DNA of 64,000 bases. It comes from Microthyrium microscopicum (Eukaryota > Ascomycota > Dothideomycetes > Microthyriales > Microthyriaceae). The DNA is taken from contig MU004230.1 in assembly GCA_010405405.1 (NCBI GenBank), forward strand, positions 1,509,744-1,573,743, written 5' to 3'. Under the pieces are notes generated by a model. The model made no database searches and had not been told where the DNA came from. It saw nothing but the letters and a program-made list of their open reading frames with translations. This document shows, in pieces, positions 3,732-31,910 of this stretch. The first letter of the stretch is position 1. Each line of letters begins with the position of its first letter. A program made the translations under genes and the position numbers.

Positions 3732-5903
3732 TGAAGGAATGCGCTGAAAGGCGGTGTATGTATGAAAGGTAATCTGATGTACCTGAGACGCGATTGAAAG
3801 TACTAATAATCTACAAGATGTACAAGATGTATAAGATGATGTAAGAAACAAAAACGTCGAAGAGGAGGAGGCGGCAAGGATGGGGACTGAGATCAGAATG
3901 CAAAACCAGTGGCGGCGGCGGTTGGAGTACTTTTGACGGGAAGAGCAGCAGACAGTGGCTTTATCTTGCGACAAGCGGAGCTGAATGGGTCAATGACTTA
4001 ACGCGAAAAGAGGCAGGGGATTACTGGCCGGGTTCCAGCCGCAGATGTGGCCGCTCTAACTTCTAAACCTCTCCACCCTCCGTTACATCCATCCATGAAC
4101 ACGGTCACGTTGTGTCCTATTTGAATCAAGTTTCCTCTGAGCACTCCTGATTTGCCTCAGTCTTAGTCGGCTCGCGCTAGCTGTGCGCCATCGCTCTCAT
4201 CCACGTATGAGTTGCGACATGTTTGACAGGGCTTCATCCATCCACACGACTACAGCCTCCGCACGTCTCTTTAGCACGAGCGATTGTTCTAGCAGTGTTG
4301 AATAAATCTACTCTCAAGCACTACAAGGCATTCCAACGGTACCCTTGAGACTTAACCATGCCACGCGGCAGGCTGGAGCTTAAATGGCTCAGTCTCATTG
4401 GCTGATCAATATATGGCAGACCAACTCTCCAACTGCAATATAAATGAACAGGCTTGCCGTCTTGCGTTTGCTGTCATACTTGCAAAAAGGTAGCATGGCT
4501 TTTTGCTCGAGGAAAATGCACTGCCACAGCTCTAGTACGAGTCGTCAACGACATCTAGTTGCCATTCGGTTGGGCATGTGCAAGTGGTCTATTGTGATCT
4601 AGATCTTCATACTACCTGGTAGTGTGCTCATGTTTTCTAATTCACAACACCATCTGCATGCCCAAGCAAGCATTGCAGCGCCTCAAAATTGAGATCAAGT
4701 TCACGAGAACCACCATCAAACACATCACCATTCAATATGCTGTGGATCTAAAGCTACATATACTTACAGTTGGGACTCGGAAGACATTATCGGTCTGCTT
4801 GTTTGAGTTGCCTCCGTTAGACTTACCGACATATAACAAAGCAGATTTTGTTGCCTCAATATATGGGCCGGGATCCTATCGTACCTACCCGGATATGTAT
4901 CTGTCCCTGATGATGAGAATTTGTCGCCCAGCAAGTCTTCCAACCGACATGTTGGACTTCCTGCCACATGCGTCGATCGCAACTCTGGCTCTGGCTGATT
5001 ATCACTAATTCTGCTTCCTTTGTTGGATGAGCCGAACGGGCGGTCTTGCAGTGGCTTTTGCTATGGTAATCAAGCATTCATCAAGGTCGAGTAGTGTCAG
5101 ACAGATCGCAGCACAGCACAGATGATATTGTCCATATGCCGATAATCTCCTACCACAGAAAACGATATGAGCTTCGGAGCTTGGATCTCATTCCATCGCA
5201 TGGCAGAATCTATATCTTCTCTTCTTCAGTACGTGTATAAGAAAGGATCAAATCAACGCTCATTGAGCTGCAATTATTGACGGACTGTTAGGTTTTATCG
5301 ATGGATTACACACCCGCTGACTCGATCAGTCTTCCTATCATACTGAATAACTTTTCTTGCTTACATCTTGTATTATAAGCTGATGGTTATGCTGGAACTA
5401 TGGTACTAGATCTGGCGCTGAAACTGTGTATGGCAGTATATCTCTATGACACCTGGCAGATATTATACCTCTTCACAATCTTCACTTTTGCCTACCACGG
5501 ACGCTGGGCATTCTTGTCATATGTATTGGCTATAGGCAACAGTTGAAATATATGTAACTATACTTGTGTAAACAGCTACTATAAGGCTACCTAAAACATT
5601 GCAGACCTGCATAAAGAATCTGGTATATCTATCCATAATATTAGCCTAAGATTCAAGTAGCAATTGACGTGATTGGCAGATTATGGACCATTTGTATGAA
5701 ATAGCCAGTGGTTTAAGTTATGTTACTCTATTCTCTCGAAGTTTCCCACTATCATATGTGCAGTGCATCTGTAGAAGTTTGAGCAAGGCTGAAGAATCGT
5801 GATGATTACAGGATATGATTGGTCAACTACCTACTGAACTACGGCCCGTTCGGCAACTTATTTAGCGCCCGCTTGCCGCCAGCCTTATAGCACACCCAAA
5901 TAG
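3732..5903. other. Gene-poor stretch, no supported gene
   Basis: About 2.2 kb holds only short unrelated frames (longest 128 codons at 4622-5008) with no domain, signal peptide or splice pattern I can support. The right end leads into an inverted-repeat element. A CG-rich patch near 5850-5880 faintly resembles that element's end and may be a remnant. Confidence 0.4.
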
Positions 5904-6104
5904 TTGACATAATAAATGGCACGCTCCTATCATATACGGAGGCTACCATTTGCTCTGCTTTGTATTCGAGTACTTAGGTTCCTCTTAAAATATTGACCGT
6001 TGGTTCTCCGTTAAATGCGCTAGGAATTAAGTCGCTGTGGCGTTATAGAGTGCGATGCAGACATCGTAGTTAATGGGAGTGCGCCATTTATCTTTTGTCC
6101 GGTT
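5904..6104. repeat. MITE family A, copy 1 (decayed)
   Basis: The left end contains AATAAATGGCACGCTCCTAT. The right end, reverse complemented, reads GATAAATGGCGCACTCCCAT. These match the ends of two other copies in the window (15506-15697 and 31697-31910). The interior is diverged but has the same size and the same GCTTT/AATTC blocks. It is non-coding and about 200 bp, with imperfect terminal inverted repeats. It lies directly upstream of a decayed coding fragment (6160-6390), the same arrangement as at copy 2. Confidence 0.7.
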
Positions 6105-6159
6105 GTACATCGTAGTCGGATTTCACTGCCTATTTGGTATCACGACTTAAGTCTCCGAG

Positions 6160-6390
6160 AATTCCGCATACATTGATCTTTCGTAGTTTCATGATGAACT
6201 TGAGAGACTCAAAACTACGGGCAACCGCCAGCATAGCAACAGCTGGACCTAGCAATACATCTGGTTTGGACGGTTACGAGTAGTATGACTCGGAGTATGA
6301 GTTGGCCTCGAACGAAGAAGAGCTAGACGAATATCTTAATCAGCTGCCATGCAGGATCGATTTGCTTGAAGATACCCGAATTCGTACGAG
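6160..6390 (+). pseudogene. Decayed 5' fragment of the GIY-YIG/C2H2 gene
   Basis: Translation of the plus strand gives AGPSNTSGLDGYE, a stop, then YDSEYELASNEEELDEYLNQ and LPCRIDLLED. This aligns residue by residue with AGPSNTSGLGGYDEYG ... DYESGLDEEDLDDYLDQLPC near the N-terminus of the gene at 13875-15310. Upstream, SKLRATASIATAGPS matches SKLAATSSAEGAGPS. The fragment carries at least one in-frame stop, has lost everything after about residue 75, and ends beside the OFD1 stop codon. It is an old truncated copy in the opposite orientation to the intact one. Confidence 0.8.
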
Positions 6391-6399
6391 CGCATAACA

Positions 6400-8361
6400 T
6401 CAATCTTCATCCCCTTCGTCATCGTCATCGTTAACGGCATACGCGCTCACCACATCAAATCGGTCGCCTGGTGCCGAAGCACTAACATACTTAACAAATC
6501 TCAGCAGGCCCCGATCTCTTAACACCACGCTCAGCGAATTCCAACTGGCTGGCATACTGAACAATACCCCATCATCTTCCTCTCCTTCGCTTGCGCGGTA
6601 AACTGCTGGGTCTGCCTTGTGCGACTTGCCTCTGTGACCAGTGCCCGTGTAGCTTGCTTCGGCTCCGCCCTCGCCGCCCTCAGGCTCATCATCATCTTCG
6701 CCAACCATATATACTTCATACCCGCCTACTGTTTCTTCGTCCTTGGACTCTGCGGGTGGTGGTGCATCGGCCGGAATACCATCCTCCTCATCACTGTCAT
6801 CTGCACCTAAGCCATCGCCACCCCAGCCTTCAGTCGGCGTGAGACCTAGGGCTAGTTCGAGTTGAGGCGAATCTTCATCGTAGCCTGACGCCAGGGTGTA
6901 GTCGTGACCGCGCCGGAAGCGACGAGCTAGGATGTCGCATTGCTGCAGATCTAGACCGGTAAAGAGATGTAACCAGCGCGTAAACAGTGGTGAAGGGAAG
7001 AGGGTGTCAAGGAGTAAATCTAGCGGCGACGCAGCCTTTGTGTCTGATGGCGGTGAAGTTGTGGCATGACGGAATAAGAAGCGGTGTTTGTGAGGTGGGC
7101 GCGCAATGTCTCTGTCGTTCGATGCGCCTCCTAGCGCTTGTGGGAGGGACGATTCAGCGGTGTCAAGTGACGTTATGTATTCTTTGAGTCTTGCGGCGAA
7201 TTTCGGGTGGAGAAAGTCTGTGAGTGTTGCGACGGAGTTTTCACGGAATGTTTCAGAGAGCTCTTCGAGGGCGTCGGGGACAAGGTAGCCTGGGTTGATG
7301 TATTGAACTAAGAAACCGAGTTCGTCTTCCGTCCAGTCCAGATCGTTGTCGGGGTCTTCTTCGGGTTTCTCGATAGGTCGCCAGCGGGTTTCGGGGAGGT
7401 CAAATTGGTCGGCTTTGCTTTGTTGGAGTTGAGTGAGAGAGCTCTTCTCCGCGAGCTTTTCTTCGAGACCTTCTTCATAGCCATCTTCGCCTTCTTGAGG
7501 GATGTGGAACCAGCCGCTGATGGCCATTCGTAAACGGCCGCCGTCTGTGCTATCGTCACCTTGGCCGGCTTTTCTGGCGTAGACTTCTTCAACGTCATGG
7601 AAACTGAGACCTGGTTGGATGGTGAAAAAACTGAGCTGGTTCCAGGACGGCGGTATTGACTTCGAGAACTCAGCACTTGGTACGACTACTTCTGTGCCAT
7701 CCTCGCCTTTCATGGTCGTTGTCGGATACAATCGTAATGCTCCACCCCACTCGGCCTGCCAAGGTTTATCGGGATCTGTAAGATAGAGGATATAACTCAG
7801 TCGCCGACTTCCAATCACATCATCATGGCAAAGAAGATGACATCCGGGCGTGTATACATTGATAGCCATGTCCGTCTTCTTTCCGCTCAATGGTCCTGAG
7901 TTTCCCACATGTGCAATCCACTCGCGAAAGGTCTTGGAGTATAGCGCGTCGCGGAGTTTGAGTAGAGAAGGAAGTCGCGATAAGAGTTTATCATCCAGTC
8001 CATCAAGATTGGCGAGATCGCCAGACTGATGAATCTTGTAAATGTCTGTTTCTTTAGGGGTAAAGTTGATCTGGTCGAGGACTTCGGATCGAACTGCGCG
8101 GAGGAGGGAGTCGTTCATGAGGTCTCGAATGACACCATGCTTATATCTACCAAAAAACTATCAATATGACAATCCAACTACTAAAGTGCCTGCTTAGCCA
8201 ACTTACGGCGCAGACTCAGCATAGCTGTCGGTATATCCGTCCAGCACAGCTTCTTCAAAAAGGCCCTGCCGAAAGTCGTCTTTCACCTGGCTCTCGCCAG
8301 TTGCTCTGCGTTTACCGGAAGCCCCATTCGCCTCGATTTGGTCATCCCCTTTTCGTTTCAT
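6400..8361 (-). CDS. OFD1: Prolyl 3,4-dihydroxylase Ofd1/Tpa1 (2OG-Fe(II) oxygenase)
   Basis: This is a 2-oxoglutarate- and Fe(II)-dependent dioxygenase of the Tpa1/Ofd1/OGFOD1 family, which hydroxylates a proline of ribosomal protein uS12. In fission yeast it also controls sterol-regulated Sre1 according to oxygen. Exon 1 (8361-8207) encodes a basic N-terminus starting MKRKGDDQIEANGASGKRR. A 60-nt intron (8147-8206) follows, then one long exon, giving about 633 residues. The metal site is visible: CHDD near residue 158 (HxD) and SFHDVEEV near 235 (distal His). The 2OG-binding Arg lies in RMAISGWFH near 258. The second, non-catalytic oxygenase-like half and an acidic loop follow, as in Tpa1. 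It is divergent from the FAD enzyme at 8612, sharing about 250 bp of promoter. Confidence 0.93.
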
Positions 8362-12320: not shown

Positions 12321-13305
12321 ATGTCTCCATTATTGTCTGCCTTTTGCCTAGCTTTACTTGGAATTGTCGCGAGCACGTCTGCTTGTCAGTTTCCTGATAC
12401 ACCTCTTTCCAGCAACATCACAGATGGCTTCAGTATTTACGTCCAGAACGCGTCGATTCCCGTCATTCATAACCGGGTCCTGAACTTCCGACCAAATGGA
12501 CTGGATATGCATTTGGTCTTGAGGCCAGCAGGCGAACCAACCAATGACACATTGTATCTACAAAATGGTCGAGTTATATACAACACTTTACACGCTGTGA
12601 TAGATCTCGAGGTACAACACCATCATCTTCACAGAATAGTGTTAAGCATAAGAAGAAAGCGAAGTGGCGGCTAACTGCTTCATAGTACGACCCTGACAAT
12701 AGCACTACCAAGATATTCATGACAGATCGTACCTATCATCCAGTTGGCATATTTCAACCTGTTTATGGCTGCAACCCCGAGACTGATGCGCTCCAAATCG
12801 AGTTGGAAGTGGCAACCCGCTTGACTGATCCACCGGTGAATGGCGGGAAGGTCGGCATAAGACGTGTGGTAGACACGTATGAGTTCCGATATTCTCCACC
12901 GGACAATTCATGTAAGTCCACTTCCATGCCCGGTTGAGAAGCCTCTACGGCTACGTACCAGTGCTACTTTGAGCATGAAGTCGAGCCCGTCATATACAGA
13001 GTCTAAAATGGATATCAACTAGTACTCACCCCCGAATGGCTATCCGTTACCCTGGTACTGTTCCGCAACGGCTAGAGCCCGATGCCACCGACTTCAAGTA
13101 CGGCTCATCAAAGCATCTCCAATGTCAAATCACCGGCCTCGAAACCGCCTATGGCTTTTACTTCATAGCTGCTCAACTGGTAGACCTCAATATAAAAGAG
13201 GACAAAGACAGGATGACGCCGCAGGAACTTGGAAGGAATATATCACTATTATTAGTGTCTGAATGTATTGTCTCGAGTCACTTTTCGCAAATATACTCCT
13301 TTTAA
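12321..13305 (+). pseudogene. Secreted protein gene, probably damaged
   Basis: The ATG at 12321 begins a clear signal peptide (MSPLLSAFCLALLGIVASTS, cleavage near ACQFP). It is followed by a hydrophilic domain with several N-x-T/S sites. An intron of about 75 nt after VIDLE (GTACAA donor, CATAG acceptor near 12686) joins to YDPDNSTTKIFMTDRTYHPV. A second intron probably starts at GTAAGT near 12912. The last coding stretch reads LTPEWLSVTLVLFRNG in one frame but LEPDATDFKYGSSKHLQCQI in another, which looks like a single frameshift around 13070. If so the gene is recently broken. No family is recognised. It could be an apoplastic or cell-wall protein. Confidence 0.5.
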
Positions 13306-13389
13306 TTCATAATTCGATTTAAACGACTGAACAACTGCTTCGCTCTTCATTTCAATGCGATTGAATAGCGCTAAAGTTACTGTTGATCC

Positions 13390-13919
13390 CTAAGAGAGCT
13401 CTTTTCCGCAGTATTGACAACTGCCACGACCTTCCTCGTCGCTTTCGGGCTTTATTGGCACGTCTTTTCATGTTCAAGAACATAGCTCGTCGCAAATTCT
13501 CTTTCGCAGTGTCGACACTTGATATTGCCTAGGTCGCCGTTAAGGATTTGCTGGTAGGTCCTCTCAAGGCAAGTTCTTCGAGGACAAAACAAACTGAGCC
13601 ATTCTGACGACTACTCCCTTCGAACACGATGGCTGCCATTGCACTTCTTAAAGAGCGACTGCTTTAATCCCCATCGTGTTCGATAATCTGATGCAAGTTC
13701 TACGACGTTGATGGGAATTAAAGCAGTCGCTCTTTAAGAAGTGTAATGGCAGCCATCGTATTCGATGGGAATTCCATCCAAAAGGCTCAATTATTATTTT
13801 GTTCCTGGAGAGGCAAGATATGTGCCCATTTGAGTGCTCCTTTCCACAGTGTCGACAAAAATTCAACATTTTCATCACGTTTTGGGTTTCCTGGCAGATC
13901 CTCTCATGGTGACTTCGAC
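13390..13919 (-). pseudogene. Disrupted C-terminal C2H2 finger array
   Basis: Downstream of the intact stop of the GIY-YIG/C2H2 gene, other frames continue the zinc-finger pattern. They read RSHHERICQ then NFCRHCGKEHSNGHISC (about 13919-13810), FCPRRTCLERTYQQILNG and IKCRHCEREFATSYVLEHEK (about 13600-13460), and SCQYCGKELS ending at a TAG at 13390. The frame changes near 13919, beside a repeated AGGT, and the array is interrupted by a palindromic module (13614-13771). The ancestral protein therefore probably had three or four more fingers than the present reading frame encodes. Confidence 0.65.
13614..13771. repeat. Palindromic module related to MITE family A
   Basis: The arms 13614-13675 and 13710-13771 are inverted copies. 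The 55 inner bases differ at only three positions, all C/T or G/A transitions, and about 34 bp separate the arms. The core CCCATCGAATACGATGGC plus GCTTTAATTCCCATC also occurs in MITE copy 2 (CCCATCAACTCTGATGGC and GCTTTAATTCCCATC). Weaker inverted similarity continues outward for some 20-30 bp. RNA or single-stranded DNA from here could fold into a long hairpin. It lies inside the zinc-finger tail of the neighbouring gene. Confidence 0.8.
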
Positions 13920-15310
13920 TAGGTAGGTACGTATAGAATCGAACTTATTGTTGCAGAATATAGATATCAACTGTACGTCACCATGTATACGACTATGATA
14001 GTCAAGGCCTTCTTGAGTCTTGCTTATCCAGTGGCATTGATCACGTTTGAAAGGCCTTGTAGTGCAGACCGGAAAATGACTTTGAGCCCTGAAGATTGTA
14101 GTAAAGGAGCGGCCACATCTATTAGGACAGAGAAATGCGCCGAGTCCTGGATGCTGGCGTGTAAAGTGGCGTTGCAGATGCTCTTGTGAATGCGCATATG
14201 CTCTACATAAACGACAAAGAAGGTGCTTGTCTGCCCGGAACTCATGGGACATCGCAATTGGAAGGGAGCGGTTCAATCCTCCAACCTCGATTTCTGGCAT
14301 GTCAAGGGGACGATTGCCCAGAGTAATCTTGCGCTGTCTGCGAAAGTTTTTGGAGCAAGTCTGGAAGCTTCGGAGGAGCACGATAATTATGGCTTCGTAA
14401 AGTTCGAGCCAGTGTGGCTCGTCGTGGTGGAGATCTACCGCAATGATAGAGAATTGCGGATCAATGCCTGCTTTAGCGAACTCCTTGTGGCAGTGGAGTG
14501 TATCTAAGTGGCTTGGAGAACGTCGTTCTAGCTCTAGATTTGCCTTATGGTCCTCGTCGCGGTCTACTGAATTCCATGTAGACCCCGTATAATTGAGGCC
14601 GTCGCGTTTTTGCGCAGATCTTCCATGGAGTCCGTAAATGCCTCTGAGTTCCAAGTCATCTGGTGGTGAGTCAAGGTATTCCTCAAAGTCCTCGTATGTG
14701 ATAGGCCGGTCAGTTTCCTTTCTAAGGACTTCAATGAAGCAGCCAAGTCCCTCAACAGCCCAATCCGCAAATGTTGCTGCTGGCAGCGAGCGAAGGAGGG
14801 GATCGAAGCGGCGGTGGATTTGTCGTCCAAGTCGATCGTTTTGATCAAGATCCTGGATCCATTAGCAAGAGTTTAACAAAGAGTAATAGAACCAACCTTT
14901 TGCATTCGAGATACAACCTCCAAAACTCGTTCCTTGCATCTCTCTTTTGTCGTATCACCAACAGTTTGCTTTCTGACCGTAAACTTGGTCACCCACTTTG
15001 TGATTCTCTGGTTCTCGCCATCTATTGAGATTCCAAGCTCTTCATCTGTCGACGGCGCAAATCGCTCTCCGGAGGGCTCCTCAAGCAAATCCATCCCGCA
15101 TGGTAGCTGATCAAGGTAGTCGTCCAGATCTTCTTCGTCTAAGCCTGACTCGTAGTCTGAGCCACTGTCTTGCTCCAAACCATACTCATCATAACCGCCC
15201 AAGCCAGATGTATTGCTAGGTCCAGCGCCTTCTGCGCTGGAGGTTGCTGCTAGCTTTGAGAGTCTTTTGGCTTCCGTCTCATCGTCGATAGAAAAGCCGT
15301 CGAGATCCAC
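13875..15310 (-). CDS. GIY-YIG nuclease-like / C2H2 zinc-finger protein
   Basis: Exon 1 (15310-14897) and exon 2 (14852-13875), with a 44-nt GT-AG intron, give about 463 residues. An acidic N-terminus (GLDEEDLDDYLDQLPC) and a helical segment (KERCKERVLEVVSRMQK) precede a GIY-YIG-like domain. That domain has RGIYGLHGRSAQKRDGLNYT with YTG as second motif, a His/Arg helix (SPSHLDTLHCHKEFAKAG), a candidate catalytic Glu in WLELYEAIIIVLL and a late Asn in GGLNRSLP. At least three C2H2-like fingers follow (LLCRLCRAYAHSQEHLQRHF, FLCPNRCGRSFTTIFRAQSH, FKRDQCHWISKTQEGLDYHS). The frame appears open, but the finger array is cut short. MITE copy 2 lies about 200 bp upstream and a decayed second copy sits at 6160. 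The fold call rests on motif spacing only. It may be an element-encoded endonuclease. Confidence 0.65.
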
Positions 15311-15505
15311 ATTGTTGGAATTGTGGTAGGGAGACTGAACTGGCTATAGCCAAGATGATGGAGGAGGCTCTTGAATTGATTGTTGAGCGGGCCCTTGAAT
15401 GGATTAAGGAGAGCGATGGGTAGCCAGCTGGATTGGCTCTTGGGTTGGCCGTAATGGAACTCAAAAGCTTCGAACCAGCTGGTCTATAGTGATGGAGCAG
15501 TATGT

Positions 15506-15697
15506 CAACGGCATGGCAAAATGAATGGCATGCCCCCATCAAATCTGATGGCGCCCAGACGCTACGGTCTATTATCGAGTGCTTTATTTGCCATAAAGGG
15601 CGTTCGGGTTAGGAATTTTTATCAGATACGATGGGAATTAAAGCACCTTTTGGTTAGCAGCGCTGGTGGTAGCCATCAGAGTTGATGGGAGCACGCC
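15506..15697. repeat. MITE family A, copy 2
   Basis: The left end reads CAACGGCATGGCAAAATGAA then TGGCATGCCCCCATCAAATC. The right end, reverse complemented, reads GGCGTGCTCCCATCAACTCT then GATGGCTACC. The inverted repeats are about 55 bp and imperfect. The outermost right end is missing compared with copy 3, so the element is slightly truncated where it meets the 3' end of TPC1 (stop at 15713). It sits upstream of the GIY-YIG/C2H2 start. Confidence 0.8.
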
Positions 15698-15712
15698 CTT
15701 GACAGAGGAGAT

Positions 15713-16723
15713 TCATGGTAATGCTCTTTTATTTTCCCACCATCTTAATCCATTGATCGCTCGTTCAAACGTCCACATGGTAACGGCACTTGTTGGCGCA
15801 GCTTTCACCAGCGCTACCGTTAAGCCACGGTACATGCCTCTTACTCCCTCGCGTTTCAATATCATCTTGATTGTACCCGACACGCCAGTATACTCTGGAA
15901 TATTGCGGTTCACATATAGCCCACGACTCGGACCTTGCACTTGCAACCGCTTGCGCACAGTATCGAGTGGATAGACTGCGGTCTTTGCTAGGACACTAGC
16001 CAGCACGCCCGCCAGTCCATCGCCCGAGCCCAAAGCCATCAAGGGCAACGACGTATTGGCCACAATGGGCTTGAATGTTTCGTACGCGGTAAAGAATAAT
16101 CCCATGTATGGAATGATTTGTACATTGGCGGCGCCGAGTCCGCGGAAGAAACCACGACGACCTTCGGTTTCTGCGATCTGGCGGATACCGCTAAGTAGGG
16201 AGGGATAGACTTTCTCAGTGCCTTGCGCAGCGAAACGTGTACGAAGTAGATCAAGCGGGTATGTGGCAGTTGTCGATATGGTGCCGGCCGTGGCTCCAGC
16301 AATGAACGAACATGCTGTCGGAGAAGGATGGAAAGGGAGGCTTGGTGATTCGAGTACTTCGTTTATGGTACGGTACGTGAGGAATTGGAGGGCGCCATAT
16401 GTGAGATATAGGCCTTCGGCAGGAATATTGCCTTTCCAGAATGCCTATCACAGTCAATTCTAGTTGCACTAGAGGCGAAGCTCTTCACGAACAGTTATGC
16501 CTTCTTCGCGTAGTATCTGGGTGACGGTGCGATAAATGCCGGAGTATGCTCCCGCACGACCATTTGGACGATTCAATGGATCGCTCAAAGAGTGGATTTG
16601 AAGCTGTAGACGGATCTTCAGTACGTCTAGGGGAGATATCACGAAGCGGCTTATTAAACCAGCAAAAGCGCCCGCGATCACGACTTGGACACGCGAGCCT
16701 TCATCTTTCAAGCGCTGGACCAT
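15713..16723 (-). CDS. TPC1: Mitochondrial thiamine pyrophosphate carrier Tpc1
   Basis: This is an inner-membrane SLC25 carrier that imports thiamine pyrophosphate for mitochondrial dehydrogenases. Exon 1 is 16723-16493, the intron 16445-16492 and exon 2 16444-15713, for about 320 residues. All three carrier repeats show the signature: [27 protein letters not shown] and [14 protein letters not shown]. Each is followed by the matching loop motif (ALWKG-type [34 protein letters not shown]). The opening [15 protein letters not shown] and the residues around the third repeat fit the Tpc1 subfamily best. Another nucleotide carrier is a less likely alternative. The ATG at 16723 is used because the upstream ATG at 16759 meets a stop at once. 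Confidence 0.9.
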
Positions 16724-16981: not shown

Positions 16982-17044
16982 ATTTGTAGGATGCAGGATT
17001 TAATGCGATCTGCACGGACCACTTGTGCTAAAATACTACTCCTC
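16982..17044 (+). repeat. Left terminal inverted repeat of the A/T island
   Basis: This is the left 63-bp arm. It matches the reverse complement of 24680-24742 at 61 of 63 positions. Composition switches to almost pure A/T immediately inside it. Confidence 0.85.
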
Positions 17045-20000
17045 AACCTACACCGCTATTTAGATATTTACATATAATTCCTAACTATTCCTTTACCTAT
17101 ATAAATTACGTCTCTATCGTATCAAAATTAATTTCTTATACTTAATCTCTATTATAATCTCTAAAAAAAATACTTCTAAAAGGTACTTATAGTTAGCCTA
17201 AATAGGATTATGTAAATACTACTATTACTAATCTTAGGGCAAATTAACTACTAGTACTTATCCTAAATCCTTATAGTAAAAAGAAAGCTAATACTATTAT
17301 AACTATAATATTAGTAAAAGGTAGACTACTATTAGAATTTATACTAAGATATTCTAGATATAAGTCTATATAGTCTTAATAAGTACTAGTGCCTTATAAT
17401 ATACTAATAAAGATATATAACCCTAGTACTAATATATTTACTATTAGACGTACTATTAATAACTAAGAAGTAGATAATATAGTTTAACTACATTAAATAA
17501 GTACTAGTATTAAGAAGCTAAGCAAGCTAGTAAGTAGAGAGAAGAAAGCTATAACTGTTCCTACTAGTATTAAGGACGTAGTTAATAATAATAATAACGT
17601 TAACTAAGATAATAATATTAATAAAGATATAGGATTTATAGTTATAAAGAAAAGTTTACTAAATAGGGCACTATTATTAGTAAAGGCTATAAAGGAGGAG
17701 TAAGCTTAATATACTTAAGAATTAGTAAAGATTTAAGAACAACTTTAAGTTACTACTATAATAGTAATAATAGTAATAGTAAATAATATTACTACTATAC
17801 TTATACTAGTAGTTATAAAGAATATAGTATTAACTAAGAATAAAGCCGCTAGAACTACTTAAGATATAGTTACTAGCCTAGAGGATAATAAAGTTAAAAA
17901 GAATAAAATTAAGTAGCTAAGTAAAAATAAGCTAGCTAAAGATAAAAGTAACACTATTATTAGTAATATAGACGATAATCTATTCTATTATAGTAATAAC
18001 CTTCTAGTATATAAGGTTAGTATTAAAATAAGAATATTTACTTAAAGTAGTTTAGTATTCTTTAAGAAGATAATACTACTAGTAGAGAGAAAGGACTTTT
18101 ATATTAACGTCCTTAAAGATAAGCTTTATAATATAAATAAACGTACTAAGGACTACTAATATACTATTTTAGCTATTAATATTAATTAGAAGTCTTTCTA
18201 TAAACGTTATATTAAAACCTATAGCTATATAGAAGTAATTATATACGCCTAATAGAATCTATAGATTAAAGCTATAGATTACTATTTTTAGAGTAATCTT
18301 AAGAGTAGTAACCTTTATATAGTTACTATTATTACTAAATTTAATCTAACTAATATTAAGAATATTATTACTTTAGCCCTAAAGCTTCTACTAGAGGGTC
18401 TAGAAGTATATATAGATTTACTAACTTACTATTTAAATACTATTACTAATTAATATAAGAATTATAGGCCTATTTATACTATAAAGGGATCTACTAAGGA
18501 GTAGATATTTAGAAAGTAGTTATATAATATTAACTATCCTAACTAGGGTAAACTATACTAAAAGGATCCTAAAACTAATACTTATTATAATATTACTAGT
18601 ACTTAATATTAGTAATAAGCTTTTATAATAAGTATAAGTAAGACTATAGAAGCTAATACTCCTTTATATCTAATTACTTTCTAGATAAGAACTTAGAGCA
18701 TAGTTAGTATTAAGCTTACTTCTAGGGGTACCTAGTTAACTATTCGTAATACCTTAAGTAATATATCTTAGGCTTAGTAAGAATTATAAGAATCCTTAGA
18801 GACTTAGTAACTCTAAGACTAGTAAAATAGGATTACTACTTAAGTTAATTATTAGGCTAAATAAGCTTAGGCTACTTAGAATACTACTAAACTTTATAAA
18901 GTAGCGTTAGACTAGTAAATAGACTATATAAAGCATAATTGCTAAGAGGATAATTAATAAGAATAAGATACTACTACTTATTAAATAGAGAGAAAAGAAG
19001 CTAAAAAAGAGGTTAGAGAATTATAGTAAGAATAGTACTATAAGCTATAAAGAATAATATTAGTATCTTAAATACGTTCTATTATACTTTCTTTTATTTA
19101 ACTTCTAATTTAACTTCCTCTAATATAGTAATAATTTTAATTGCCTTATACTATACTAAATACTAGGCTCTAGTAGATATTCTAATCTTATCTTCTATTA
19201 CTAGCCTTATATTATAGTTAACTTCTATTCTCTTTCCTTAGTTATAAATATTATATTATTATTTAGTATAATACTAACTTAGAATTATATAGTTATAAAC
19301 TTTCTACCTCCTTTTATTTCTTAACTATTATTAAATATAGATTATATTTTTTTTTTTCTTTTTATAGTTACGTTAGCTACCTTAGCTCCTTCTTCTCTAT
19401 AATTCTTATTTTAAAGTAGTAGACTACTAAGTTATTTATTTATAGGTAGCGCTAATAAATAACCTACTAGCTTAATTAATTCTAGATATACTAATATTAA
19501 GCTTACTAATAAGTTTTTCTAGTAGAAGATTTATATTAAGAAGGTCTATACTACTAGTTAGAAGAGGTACTACTATATAATTAGGTCTTATAAGTAGATA
19601 TTAATAGATATATAAGATAGTATAGTATAAATAATAGAGATTATAAAGCTATACGTAAAATATAACGTACCTAAGTAAATTATTAAGTTATTTAATTTAT
19701 TAATTTCTTAGTATTATATATAGATTAAAGAATAGCGTCTTAGCTATAAAACGATCTATATTTATAATAACTTAGAAACCTATAGGCTAGCATAAAAATA
19801 TAGTTAAGTAAGTAGTATAGAAGTCTAAATTATTACTAATATATTATTATATTTAAATTTAATAGGTATAGATTCTTTTTTATATAAAAACGATAAAAGA
19901 GATTATAGATTTATATCTATAATTTTTAGATCTTATTTCTACGCGTTAGTAAAAAAAGTTATACTTTATATTAGAGATTTTTAAATCTTTTTAATTACTA

Positions 20001-20921
20001 CTACTATTCTTTAACTATAATAAATATTACCTTTTTATTTTTTATTAGTACTTTAGATAGTAGTTTTTAATTAGCTTACCTTTATAGTAATTAAAAATAT
20101 TTAGTTTTAATAGAATAGTAGCTTAGTAATATTTATAATAAAAAATTATGCTAATCTTTACCTCTTTATAAATTCTTATAGTAATAAGAATTACTCTTAG
20201 AATCTAGTAATTATCTAAACTTACTTTAAAAATGCGTATATACTAATATTACTAGATTTATCTCTATTTACTAATATCTTAACGTATTTAAATACTACTA
20301 CTATTAATATCTATTTATAGCTAGATATAACCTATCTACTCTTCCTTATACTATTAGTATTTATCTACTTTACTATTATATAAGTAAATCTCTCTATTAA
20401 TAGTTCTATTATAATATAACTCTATTTCTTACTATTAGTAGTTTAATAATCTCTATACTAATACTTATTTATAAACTAACTTAGCTCCTTTATAATCTCT
20501 TTTTCCTAATACCTAAGTATTTATAGGTCTAACTATAGTATATTAAGTATTTATTAAATACTTTCTTAATGCTAAGTAGTATCTAGTTTGTTTTTATAAT
20601 ATTATTAGTAACTTCTTTACTTCTCTCTTAATACTAAGGTAATAGCCTAATTAGTATTAGATATTAGTACTTTATTACTACTAATCTAAATACTTCCTTA
20701 GTATCTAGTATAAGTATAAACTATTTATAAATAAAATCTTCTTAACGTAGTAAGTTTAGTACTAGAGGAGTATAAAATATATTTATTACTTACTATTCTT
20801 TAATTCTTCTTTATTTTCTTTATTTAATACTAAACTTTAGTACTATTAATAGCTAATATTATTACTTTATTACTAGTATTAGTATAGGTTTGCTAATTTT
20901 ATATAATACTACTAAAACTTA

Positions 20922-21070
20922 GGTTAATCTACTCTTAGTATATATTCTTATTCTATTTACTTTTTCTTTAGATTAACTTACTCTTTAGTATATATTTCTA
21001 TTTTATCTACTTCTTCTTTAGGTTAACTTACCCTTTAGTATATATTCCTATTCTATCTACTTCTTCTTTA
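20922..21070. repeat. Tandem repeat, three units of about 50 bp
   Basis: Three successive units share AGRTTAAYYTAC, then TTAGTATATATTC, then TATTCTATYTACTT, ending TCTTT. They lie within the A/T island and differ mainly by C/T changes. Confidence 0.7.
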
Positions 21071-21088
21071 GATTAACTCTCTCTCCTA

Positions 21089-21226
21089 GCTCTATTAGTT
21101 TGCTATTTTAAAGAAATACTATAAAAGGTTAAGCTCTACTAGTTTACTATTCTAAAGGAATATTATAAAAGGTTAGGCTTTATTAGCTTACTATTCTAAA
21201 AGGAATACTAAAAGAGCTAGGACTCT
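21089..21226. repeat. Tandem repeat, three units of about 45 bp
   Basis: Three units of the pattern GCTCTAYTAGTTTRCTATTY followed by TAAAGRAATAYTATAAAAGG follow the previous array. The third is more diverged. They lie within the A/T island. Confidence 0.65.
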
Positions 21227-23479
21227 ACTATTATTAAATTACTACTATTTAAAAGTAGTAAGAAGATTCCTAAAACTTTCTCTTTACTAGTGCGCGCCTT
21301 TACTATATTAAAAAATACTATCTTTTATATAGGACTCTAATATCTATACCTTTACTCCTATATTTTCTTTATATTATAAAAGTATATAGAAATAAAGGTC
21401 TTAGCTTATTAACCTTAATAATATTATTAAGGGAGTTAGAATTCTATACCTTTTAGCTCTTTTATCTTTAATAAAGTATTAAAGGCTATAAGGACTTTAT
21501 CTCTTTTAGTATTCTATTTCTATATTGTCTCTACGAATTATAAGTTAAGCTATTCTTTAGTATGTATTTCTTTAATATTATTAAAGCTATTAAAACTTTA
21601 TAGTATTATATTAAAGAAATACTAAAAGAACTTAGGCTATATTAGCTAATAGTTTTTATTTATACCTACTATATATATATATAAAAAAGAACTATTAATT
21701 AGTATAGAATAGTTATATAATATTACTTTTATTAGTAACTATCTTTAATACTACCTAAGTTTATATTATTATTATAACTAGCATTATTACCTTATCTTTT
21801 ATATATACTTTTAATATAAGCTTTCTTATTTATCGTTTCTCTTTACTAATTATTAACTAGATTATAGTTTACTTAAATTATTATCTTACTACTTAATCCT
21901 TAACTTAGTAATAGGCTTTAGCCTTAGGTAGTTATATCCTTTACTAGTTATATTTTATAGTAATTTACTTCCTTATTAATAGTTAAGTAGCACTATAAAG
22001 ATTTATAAAGTATTATTAACTTTTTCTTCTCTCTATTTCTTTTATAAACTACTTTATATAATTAAATCTTCTATATCTAAGCACTTTATATATTCTAAGT
22101 ACTTTATATACTTTATACCTTTATTAAACCTTACTAAATTATTTCCTCTTACTAATTCTTATTATAATAGTTTAGTTATTAATTAATACTCTACTTATAG
22201 GCTTTTTAGCTTTTAAAGCCTATTATAAGTAGGTAACCTATAATATAATCCTTAGCTTTAAAGATTAAGGCTTTATTCTTAATATTTCTAGACTACTAAA
22301 AGGTAGTATTTAACTTCCTAAGTCTTATATAAAAGGCCTTATATTTAGTACTATATATATAGTATAAACTAGTAGACTAATTATTATTACTATTAATATT
22401 ACTAATCTAATTATTAACTATATAATTAAATAGATTATAATTAATACTAATATAAGTTTATACTCTTAATTTACTATTCTTAGCTAATAAATATAGGATT
22501 TATAAGTTCTACGTTTAATTAACTATAAACCTTATTTAAGTTACCTTAGTAGTTACTATATACCTAGTAAATATAGCGTTAATTTATATCTTATTACTTT
22601 AAACGAAAGTAATATCTTTTTTAGTAAGTACTTTTTAAATAAAAACTCTATTATTAGTCCTAGTATCTAATAATTCTCTTTTAAGGCTACTATCCTCTAT
22701 AGTTAAGGCAACTTAAACTATAAATATATAAGTCTTAATAGATAGTATAATATTTACTAAAACCTCTACTACTCTATTCTTTAGCGTTATATTTAGTAAT
22801 AGTAAAATCTTTATAAATATATTAGTTATCCTAACTTCTAGGGTAGTATATACTTAAACTATATTTTATATAGTAATATTTTAACCTATAATAAGTATAT
22901 ATAGAATAATAATATATCTATTTAACTAAACCCTCCTATAGTATAAAAACTAAGTAAAATAATCTTTTCTACTACTAAAAATAACCTCTTAGGCCTACTA
23001 TAGTTCTAAAAGTATTAAATAGATACTAAAGGGTTAATATTATAGATTTTAAAGTCGTATAGATTCTTATTATTATTTTAATAGTTTTTATTTATATAAT
23101 TATATTCTTATAATAGAATTTAATATTAGAATAGTTAGAATAAGAATAAACTAAAAATTAAGGTCTAGATAATATAATAGCTTATTTTTAATTTATATTA
23201 TAATAATAAGATACTTAATATATTATTTTTAATACTAACTCTAACTTAAATACTAGTAATATAAGATATACTAAATTTTAATATCCTAACTTTAATATTC
23301 CTTTTAATCTATAGTACCTAATATCTAAATCTAATTCTTCTTATACTATTATATAAAATTATAAAATCTATATACTTCTATACCTTTATAATATATACTA
23401 TTAGCTATATACTAAAATTATTCTTTAGTAAAGTGATTATATCTACTTACTTTAATAGTATACTTTAAAAGTTTACTAA

Positions 23480-24560
23480 AGTTAGTAAACTTACTATGGT
23501 CTACTATCTAATTCCTCTTTATCTAAGCCTTTAATATACTAAACGTAAGCTTAATAGGATTAAAATTAGGTAAATATAGTAGTAGATATTAAATAATATA
23601 ATTAGTATCTTCTAATAACTCTTTAATACTTAAATTTATATAAATTGAAACGTTATTAAGGACTATAACTAATATTTAACTATCTTGCCTAATAAAGTAC
23701 TTTAGTATTATAAGTATAAGTTTAGTCTTAATTTATTTATAAAACTATTCCTTATTCTAGTATCCTAATTTAAAACTAATATAAGAAAGATATCCTTCTA
23801 GCATTATAGTAGTAATAATAGACTAAGTTTTTCTTTAAGTTAAGCTTTAGATATATTATAATAGTTCTCTAATTAGACTATATATCTTATTACGCTATTT
23901 AGTTTTTTTATTAAAAATAGATTTATTAAGGAATACTAGTTTATTTAATTTAAATTAGCTTATAAACTAGTAATATAATTAGTATAATTAATTATTTTAA
24001 GTATATAATATTTAGATAAGCTTTTTATAAGTCTACTTATGCTATACTAGTATATAAGATATTATAGATTATAAGATATTCTTCTTAATCTCTTACTATA
24101 ACTTAGTAATACCTTATTCCTTACTATAATATCTAGCTAAAGCTTAGTATTTACTAAAGTAGAGACTCCTTATCTTTAGTAGTAAGTTACTAAGGGTCGC
24201 TATAGGGTAGAAATTATAAAGGGCATATAGATCTATACTTATTAAGATTAGATTATAATTTATTAACTATTCTATAAGAATATTCTATAGACTTAGTAAT
24301 AGCTAAAGTAGTCTATTCTAAGCTACTATATTACTCTAACTTATCATACTATATCTTAGTTAGAGAGCGTCCTTTAGACTAATACTTTATTATTTATTAT
24401 TTCCTAGTAGCTAATATTAATTAATATATATATTAACTAGGTCTTAAAGGAGATATTAGCTTAGAATTACCTATAATTAGATTAGAAGCTACTTAATCTA
24501 ATTTAGGATTAGATATAGATAGGCTTATTATAATATCTATATAGATAAATCTAGGAAAAT
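23480..24560 (-). pseudogene. Tc1/mariner (DDE_3-type) transposase remnant
   Basis: The minus strand reads VLNNVSIYINLSIKELLEDT and then LYLPNFNPIKLTFSILK (about 23665-23530). These align with the family pattern of a catalytic DNASIH-like segment followed by YLPPYSPDFNPIE and FSxLK. The first catalytic Asp of this pair appears as Asn and frames are broken, both consistent with RIP. The upstream part (to about 24560) is too degraded to place domains, so its 5' limit is a guess. Confidence 0.55.
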
Positions 24561-24679
24561 TGCTACGCTAGGAGTAATAAAATATATAAAAATATATAAT
24601 TTATATACGATAGAGTAATTAAAATGCGTAGATAGAACGAGGTAAGATAATATATAGAATTAGCTAAATATTAAGTGTA

Positions 24680-24742
24680 GAGGAGCAGTATTTTAGTACA
24701 AGTGGTCCGTGCAGATCGCATTAAATCCTGCATCCTACAAAT
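24680..24742 (-). repeat. Right terminal inverted repeat of the A/T island
   Basis: This is the right 63-bp arm, the reverse complement of 16982-17044 with two transition differences. Confidence 0.85.
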
Positions 24743-25625
24743 GGCAGTTGCCCATTGCGCAAGGTCGTGGCTGCCCCTCATTGTTGATTGCCAGATTAGG
24801 AAGCGACGACTGGGAGGATGAGAACAACCTCGCAGATGGTGTGGTCAACGTTCTGCTTTTGGGCAATCTACCAATCTATATTCCCTATCATGGCTCTTCA
24901 AAAGCAATAATCTGCACTCGTTGTTTGCTCACTGAGCCTCAACTGCTTCCTGTTGGTTGATACTAACGTTAAGGGTCCATAAACCGCCTTGTTGGTTGCT
25001 GCAATTGTCGTCAAAGACATGGCTTTTAAACCCTGAACAACAAGATGTCGATGTATGTGGAGCAATATAGAGACCGTTATCTAAGTGTCTTCAGCTTTGT
25101 AGCACTAGGACCAACAAGTATCACGGGGATTTTTACAAGGGATTCTCCATGTTTGGGTTGTGCATACCTTGCATCAAATGGGCTCACAGGCTGTGGCATT
25201 ATTTCAAACAGGGAATCAAAGGGTCCGCGCAGCCCAGAACCCGCTGACCGTCTCACAGTCTCACCATCCAACCACCAAAGAGCATCATGTACCCAGGGCC
25301 CAAGCAAGGTCAGGTGGGGACTAATCTATTGATGTGACCACCGCCTTGCTTCAATCATTCTCTCCCTCAACTCTCTATCAACCACAACTCTCTTCGTTGA
25401 CCGAGTCTGCGTTTGTAGGGAACCTATCATACAGAATTCAATACTCGCGTCATGACTATTGAACACTAGCCCTCCTCTTTAGCGCTCATCTCCAATTATA
25501 CTTTGTCCGCTTGCAAGTTGCGATCTCCGTCGTCCAGATCGTTGCCTTCTTAGATCCTGGCCCACCTTTCAGCCTGTCAACTTGTCAACACCACGACGCT
25601 ATCGTGATATCTGTCAACTGTCACA
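24743..25625. other. Intergenic: upstream region of the tail-anchored protein gene
   Basis: Normal base composition returns here. The last 300 bases are pyrimidine-rich, with CTCTCAACTCTCTATCAACC-like words typical of fungal 5' leaders. No gene is supported. Short frames at 24709 and 25045 look fortuitous. Confidence 0.4.
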
Positions 25626-31696: not shown

Positions 31697-31910
31697 CAAC
31701 GGGTTGGCAAAATAAATGGCGCGCTTCCATCAACCTTGTTGGCTCCTAGATGCTACGCTCTTTTATCGAATGCTCTACTTGCTATAGACGTTGTTTAGAA
31801 TCGAATAATTTATCGAATACACTAGGGAATTCTAGCACCTTATGCTTAAGAGCGTTGGTGGCAGCCATTAGAGTTCATGGGAGAAGGCCATTTATTTTGC
31901 CATGCCGTTA
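31697..31910. repeat. MITE family A, copy 3 (best preserved ends)
   Basis: The left end CAACGGGTTGGCAAAATAAA, then TGGCGCGCTTCCATCAAC, pairs with the reverse complement of the right end, TAACGGCATGGCAAAATAAA then TGGCCTTCTCCCATGAAC. The terminal inverted repeats are about 50 bp. The word GTAAC stands on both sides (31692-31696 and 31911-31915), a candidate 5-bp target-site duplication. It is non-coding and 214 bp. Confidence 0.8.

Follow-up and report, generated by a model that had tools for sequence, protein, structure and literature searches.

A nuclear gene of Microthyrium microscopicum that likely joins a GIY-YIG-like nuclease domain to C2H2/C2HC zinc fingers

A preliminary description of a 64-kb stretch of DNA (the window) noted a frame of 463 residues in which the motifs of a GIY-YIG nuclease precede zinc fingers, and which appeared to be framed by MITE-type repeats. 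This raises the questions of whether the frame is a genuine gene, whether it carries a GIY-YIG domain, and whether it belongs to a selfish element or to a family of host genes. The window comes from Microthyrium microscopicum (Dothideomycetes; C1:1509744-1573743), whose assembly comprises 36.9 Mb in 20 contigs. Coordinates given without a contig or locus name are positions in the window.

Gene structure and surroundings

The gene is real, nuclear and spliced. Transcribed from the minus strand, it corresponds to NCBI BT63DRAFT_13392 and has a 44-nt intron between its two exons:

14897..15343, minus strand: exon 1, an open frame with an acidic segment and then the beginning of a putative helical segment
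14853..14896, minus strand: intron, 44 nt, GT...CTAAT...AG
13875..14852, minus strand: exon 2 with stop (coding 14852-13878, stop 13875-13877)

A spliced frame of about the size first described is indeed present, the correction being that its strand is minus. The NCBI model (P0001, whose residue numbers we use) has 391 amino acids and begins at an internal Met at 15094. We doubt this start because the protein homology of exon 1 to a paralogue and to a relic at 6.2 kb, both described below, extends upstream of Met 15094, and because the paralogue has Ile at the position of the NCBI start. The model is probably too short at its N-terminus, and both paralogues likely have an upstream exon that bears the true ATG. 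The neighbours scanned are ordinary host genes, encoding an Ofd1-type 2-oxoglutarate oxygenase, an amine-oxidase-like protein and a mitochondrial carrier, and Rfam gave no match at its gathering threshold. An AT-rich block of ~8 kb (17001-25000; GC 0.17-0.31 per kb) also lies beside normal genes, and positions 17300-17900 show a RIP-like bias (TpA/ApT 1.93; CpA+TpG over ApC+GpT 0.09) that the GIY-YIG family does not share.

Identification of the GIY-YIG-like domain

14256..14642, minus strand: GIY-YIG-like domain (P0001 137-265; GIY, YTG, R164, H168, E211 with E219 as the alternative, N260)

The motif spacing that first drew attention to the frame was confirmed, with GIY, YTG, R164, H168 and N260 all present. 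The GIY box (137-139) and the YTG box (154-156, Thr replacing Ile) stand close together, as they do in the GIY-YIG superfamily. R164 and H168 fall at Y+10 and Y+14, which is the I-TevI spacing, and the 47 residues from R164 to E211 compare with 48 from Arg to Glu in I-TevI. The Glu had been placed in LYEAI; that residue (E219) exists and is kept in the paralogue, but two alignments favour E211 (HDEPHW) as the Glu column, and it too is retained there. The paralogue has CVY in place of GIY and shares YTG, Y139, Y154, G156, R164, H168, E211 and N260 with the window copy; the first Gly of GIY is variable among viral domains too.

Curated libraries were blank for the domain: Pfam, PHROGs and NCBIfam gave no GIY-YIG match to the window gene. 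The HMM check proposed in the preliminary description was negative at library sensitivity, the gene failing to reach the PF01541 cut-off. Over the whole genome PF01541 found one place, on C11, which we read from its sequence as an SLX1-like gene. We call the window domain GIY-YIG-like on the basis of motif and model and do not count it as a PF01541 member.

Other comparisons gave a different picture. A loose GIY/YIG/R/H pattern, drawn up to allow the Thr of YTG, matched 38 of 41 viral GIY-YIG domains and 0 of 150,200 shuffled ORFs. Among 1502 ORFs of the genome it picked out only the paralogue and the window gene, the latter three times because loci overlapped, and it missed the SLX1-like ORF that was among them. 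A narrower pattern matched none of 200,000 shuffles of P0001. With a profile of 41 viral members the two fungal domains scored 13.8 and 9.5 bits, the best of 5000 shuffles of each reaching 7.5 and 7.3; the full window protein (10.8) scored above the SLX1-like ORF (9.7), and one dehydrogenase-like ORF of 760 reached 9.8. A 10-member viral profile gave the two domains 10.7 and 7.2 bits, with best shuffles of 7.3 and 5.0 in one run (3000 each) and of 10.6 and 10.3 in another (5000 each), where the dehydrogenase-like ORF (9.9) also exceeded the full window gene (7.8). Since the shuffles of the smaller profile varied between runs, we placed weight on the 41-sequence profile and on the pattern. Probabilities from hhalign were low, equally good shuffles numbering 0 of 400 and 1 of 1000. 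When the domain was aligned, unforced, with 26 viral domains, residues Y139, Y154, G156, R164, H168 and E211 fell in invariant columns and N260 in a nearly invariant one; 3 of 300 shuffles in the matched control reached the same number of conserved columns.

Structure prediction, also proposed earlier as a check, gave two answers. With viral GIY-YIG rows borrowed into the alignment, the model showed three strands with flanking helices and had I-TevI as its best match, whereas the AF2 model from the two fungal sequences alone (mean pLDDT 34.7) was uninformative on the fold. The best matches in a sequence search of the PDB were finger proteins (best E 0.0094).

Because spacing and pattern, profiles, alignment and model agree, though the library HMMs are blank, we consider it likely that a GIY-YIG domain and C2H2/C2HC fingers occur in one protein. 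The original interpretation is upheld in this form by the motif spacing, the conservation in the paralogue and the alignment-guided model, with the qualification that library HMMs miss the domain. The blank result from three curated libraries, and the failure of the model once borrowed rows are left out, would also fit an orphan finger protein in which the motif arose by chance; the pattern, profile, alignment and model results speak against this, and we regard it as improbable.

The zinc-finger array

14151..14216, minus strand: C2H2 finger 1 (P0001 279-300)
14064..14129, minus strand: C2HC finger 2 (P0001 308-329; by pattern and by the paralogue alignment)
13983..14045, minus strand: finger 3, first Cys replaced (FKRDQC here, FKCDQC in the paralogue)
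13396..13874, minus strand: out-of-frame remnant of the remaining array (pieces 13857-13813, 13520-13437 and 13422-13396)

C2H2 fingers do follow the nuclease-like domain, as had been claimed, with two good fingers and one broken finger in frame. The array of the window copy is broken after finger 2: finger 3 is damaged and the frame then leaves the array. The match that defines the last remnant piece (13422-13396) covers 9 residues and is no better than chance. The pattern CxxC..HxxxH/C picks out two fingers in P0001; the paralogue has six by this count, and Pfam zf-C2H2 gave E 0.083 there, short of its cut-off. The fingers are of mixed C2H2/C2HC type with long and uneven linkers, which makes tethering appear likelier than the reading of one long site.

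A small family in the genome

A protein search of the genome identified the paralogue at C1:2279200-2280081, with 54% identity over query residues 9-303. Its exon 1 is homologous to that of the window gene, an intron-like gap coincides with the window intron, and its exon 2 stays open for 512 residues and contains a long finger array. A fragment of the family also lies in the window itself:

6203..6373, plus strand: exon-1 relic (171 nt; one TAG; 57% amino acid identity with window exon 1 in an alignment of 63 columns)

What had been called a dead sister copy at 6.2 kb is a relic of the same family with one stop, but it extends only to an exon-1 fragment; we found no GIY-YIG or finger part alongside it. 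Upstream of the paralogue, at 6498-6788 of the paralogue locus (L003), a tandem relic with two TGA stops matches paralogue residues 236-330, in the finger array, and represents what is left of the array of a third family member. A DNA search with the tandem relic revealed no further copy, and a 7-residue GLNRSMP match near it (E 3.2) was left out of the counts. In total we found two catalytic-domain genes and two fragments, all on C1.

Over the GIY region the paralogue and the window copy share 63% identity. Its 131 codons differ by 0.34, 0.18 and 0.63 at positions 1, 2 and 3 (dS saturated), while finger residues 275-369 (93 codons) differ more evenly, by 0.37, 0.40 and 0.52 (dS 1.29). With a dN of 0.53, against 0.29 for the cutting domain, the array is the more rapidly changing part. 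From the codon-position differences in the GIY region, the cutting domain looks constrained since the duplication. The window copy has kept its catalytic motif residues and lost most of its array; the paralogue has kept a long array and has CVY for GIY. Finger proteins are mostly regulators, and the decaying window array and the CVY of the paralogue could both be accommodated by a GIY-YIG-derived protein that binds DNA without cutting it, in the manner of a transcription factor. Set against this, Y139, Y154, G156, R164, H168, E211 and N260 occur in both copies, an argument of modest weight at 63% identity, and we give a non-cutting protein little credence. RIP was considered as the cause of decay and rejected, the gene, the array remnant and the relics showing no RIP-like bias above the window average.

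Searches for homologues returned only the window gene itself for the window protein (E <= 0.001, 701 candidates), nothing for the paralogue (3856 candidates) and only the domain itself for the domain (E up to 10, 98 candidates); the family alignment run against viral contigs gave 35 pattern matches, none of them confirmed. The homologue negatives are weak, because the paralogue search omitted P0001 in spite of long identical stretches. Since no relatives were detectable in these searches, the distribution weakly suggests a gene of the conflict or surveillance type rather than a conserved repair enzyme. In a survey of the superfamily, the terminal Asn separates the UvrC/homing-enzyme lineage from Slx1, whose family lacks it (Dunin-Horkawicz et al. 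2006, PMC1564403); the presence of N260 therefore points to the homing-enzyme/UvrC lineage and not to Slx1. This residue counts against a host nuclease of DNA repair or recombination like Slx1 or ANKLE1/LEM-3, as do the SLX1-like gene already in the genome and the lack of a detected relative elsewhere, which would be odd for a repair enzyme, with the caveat that the searches are weak. The constraint on the GIY region and the nuclear, intron-bearing gene would suit such an enzyme; on balance we think it quite unlikely.

Repeats around the gene

13574..13812, no strand assigned: MITE A copy in the array remnant (flanks GCAAG at 13569-13573 and 13813-13817)
15506..15698 (end approximate), no strand assigned: MITE B copy, ~0.2 kb upstream of exon 1, without its right end
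5905..6105, no strand assigned: diverged B-like repeat upstream of the 6.2-kb relic

MITE A is about 236 bp long, with ends like CTCTCGAGGGACAAAATAAG and 5-bp target duplications identified by eye (GCAAG in the window, ATATG at locus L012); a search for it, with 40 of 48 candidates scored, yielded 84 matches in about 40 genomic places. MITE B has a length of 213 bp, with ends CAACGGCATGGCAAAATAAATGGCG and target duplications of 5-6 bp, also by eye, and its ends gave 98 forward and 96 reverse matches against 0 in a backward control. At up to 6 mismatches, B ends were matched at 15506 and 31697 in the window and at 6281 in L003. The repeat at 31697-31910 is a complete family B MITE with a GTAAC target duplication, and weaker pieces lie near 33.4 kb. 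The two families have an identical 16-nt inner motif (13710-13725 and 15630-15645) and similar ends, and may use related transposases.

The preliminary description had a MITE upstream and a related palindrome in the tail of the gene. Both repeats are real, B upstream and A downstream on the gene strand, but they belong to two different families, and no single inverted repeat flanks the gene at its two ends. We read the MITE A copy as an insertion into the gene because it sits between two finger remnants. The supposed framing did not survive closer analysis: neither repeat bounds the gene, the downstream one being inserted in the array and the upstream one truncated. An element framed by MITEs was rejected, A and B differing in family and A having its own target duplication inside the array remnant. 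Three of the four family loci (the window gene, the 6.2-kb relic and the tandem relic, which the family B repeat at L003 6281-6493 adjoins) have a B or B-like copy close by, a nearness that possibly reflects local abundance only, the window being rich in such copies anyway. Comparison of window 13000-16200 and 5700-6700 with L003 3000-8000 revealed no shared flanks outside exons and repeats, and the spacers from the B-type repeat to exon 1 at the window gene and the 6.2-kb relic have nothing in common (global alignment score -2.5).

Neither explanation offered at the outset, a selfish element with repeat-defined ends or a host family hitch-hiking with MITEs, finds support here, the repeats being widespread and independent, A lying inside the gene and flanks being unshared. 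Our reading is that the repeats are bystanders that helped to break copies. A selfish element could instead be of the homing kind, its fingers choosing a site that is cut and into which repair copies the nuclease. Its domain is most like those of homing endonucleases, and the copies and fragments sit at unlike places; however, the copies compared have no common flanks, ends or target duplications, the intron is retained, the adjoining repeats are independent and widespread families, and the two copies with a catalytic domain that were found, like the two fragments, all lie on C1. We judge such an element unlikely.

Proposed function and history

We think it rather probable that BT63DRAFT_13392 is a nuclear gene for a GIY-YIG/finger nuclease, one of a small host family that is in partial decay and has to date turned up in this fungus alone. 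The protein would consist, in order, of an acidic N-terminal stretch, a helical segment (predicted only by a very poor model), the GIY-YIG domain and a C-terminal C2H2/C2HC array. The fingers would keep the protein attached to DNA or chromatin, and its GIY-YIG domain would nick or cut a strand nearby, using Tyr139, Tyr154, Arg164 and His168 and a metal on Glu211, catalytic roles that we presume to carry over from I-TevI. The family would spread by ordinary DNA-level duplication, with the intron kept, and some copies would decay; the window copy has lost most of its array through frame disruption and the insertion of MITE A. The role that we favour is that of a nuclease for conflict or surveillance, restricted to this lineage and decaying in part. 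A homing cycle might operate, but the copies compared show no boundary evidence for it. A bolder reading, to which we assign a low probability, sees here a natural zinc-finger nuclease, in which the finger array would direct a nuclear GIY-YIG enzyme to particular genomic sites. It could then act as a selfish gene of the homing type or cut DNA in defence of the genome. Should the nuclease cut at the sites that its fingers bind, the locus would offer a small, testable case of a selfish-type nuclease domain turning into a host gene or decaying.

Comparison with known systems

GIY-YIG domains, finger arrays and GIY-YIG domains fused to DNA-binding modules are all already known, and GIY-YIG domains recur with many partners. 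The Figure 1 legend and the accessible part of Table 1 of the 2006 survey name no C2H2 array (PMC1564403). A full-text literature search for GIY-YIG with C2H2 or zinc fingers returned genome-editing reviews only; in the portions of the fungal literature found, GIY-YIG meant mitochondrial homing enzymes, and none of the literature matches listed had GIY-YIG with a finger array in a fungal nuclear gene.

Like the window protein, I-TevI (1ln0) has GIY, YIG, Arg, His, Glu and then Asn in this order and spacing, with DNA-binding modules after the nuclease domain, one of which is a Zn-finger according to the survey (PMC1564403). It differs in that the window gene is nuclear, spliced and outside a group I intron, and that the window protein has ~34 more residues between Glu and Asn, a C2H2/C2HC array as its DNA-binding part and an extra N-terminal part. 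The same survey describes the endonuclease of Penelope-like elements as a eukaryotic GIY-YIG (PMC1564403). Pfam revealed no reverse transcriptase on either exon of the window gene or of the paralogue. Like the window protein, Penelope-like endonucleases have Zn-binding residues linked to the domain; the fingers of the window protein are C-terminal, however, and the CxxC that Penelope-like endonucleases carry between GIY and YIG is absent between its two boxes.

SLX1 is likewise a member of the GIY-YIG superfamily in the fungal nucleus and has a Zn-binding C-terminal part; the window protein is set apart by its terminal Asn and by the separate SLX1-like gene at C11. Proteins of the T5orf172/MUG113 type belong to the GIY-YIG clan and are also encoded in fungal nuclear genomes. 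In this genome T5orf172 matched above the Pfam cut-off at C6:1361837-1362130 and C12:1222707-1222994, unlike the window gene, which has no PF10544 match. Engineered zinc-finger or I-TevI fusion nucleases combine a cutting domain with a finger array. The window protein is natural and has uneven linkers, in contrast to a TGEKP-linked array; if its nuclease cuts at finger-bound sites, it would be a natural counterpart to engineered zinc-finger nucleases.
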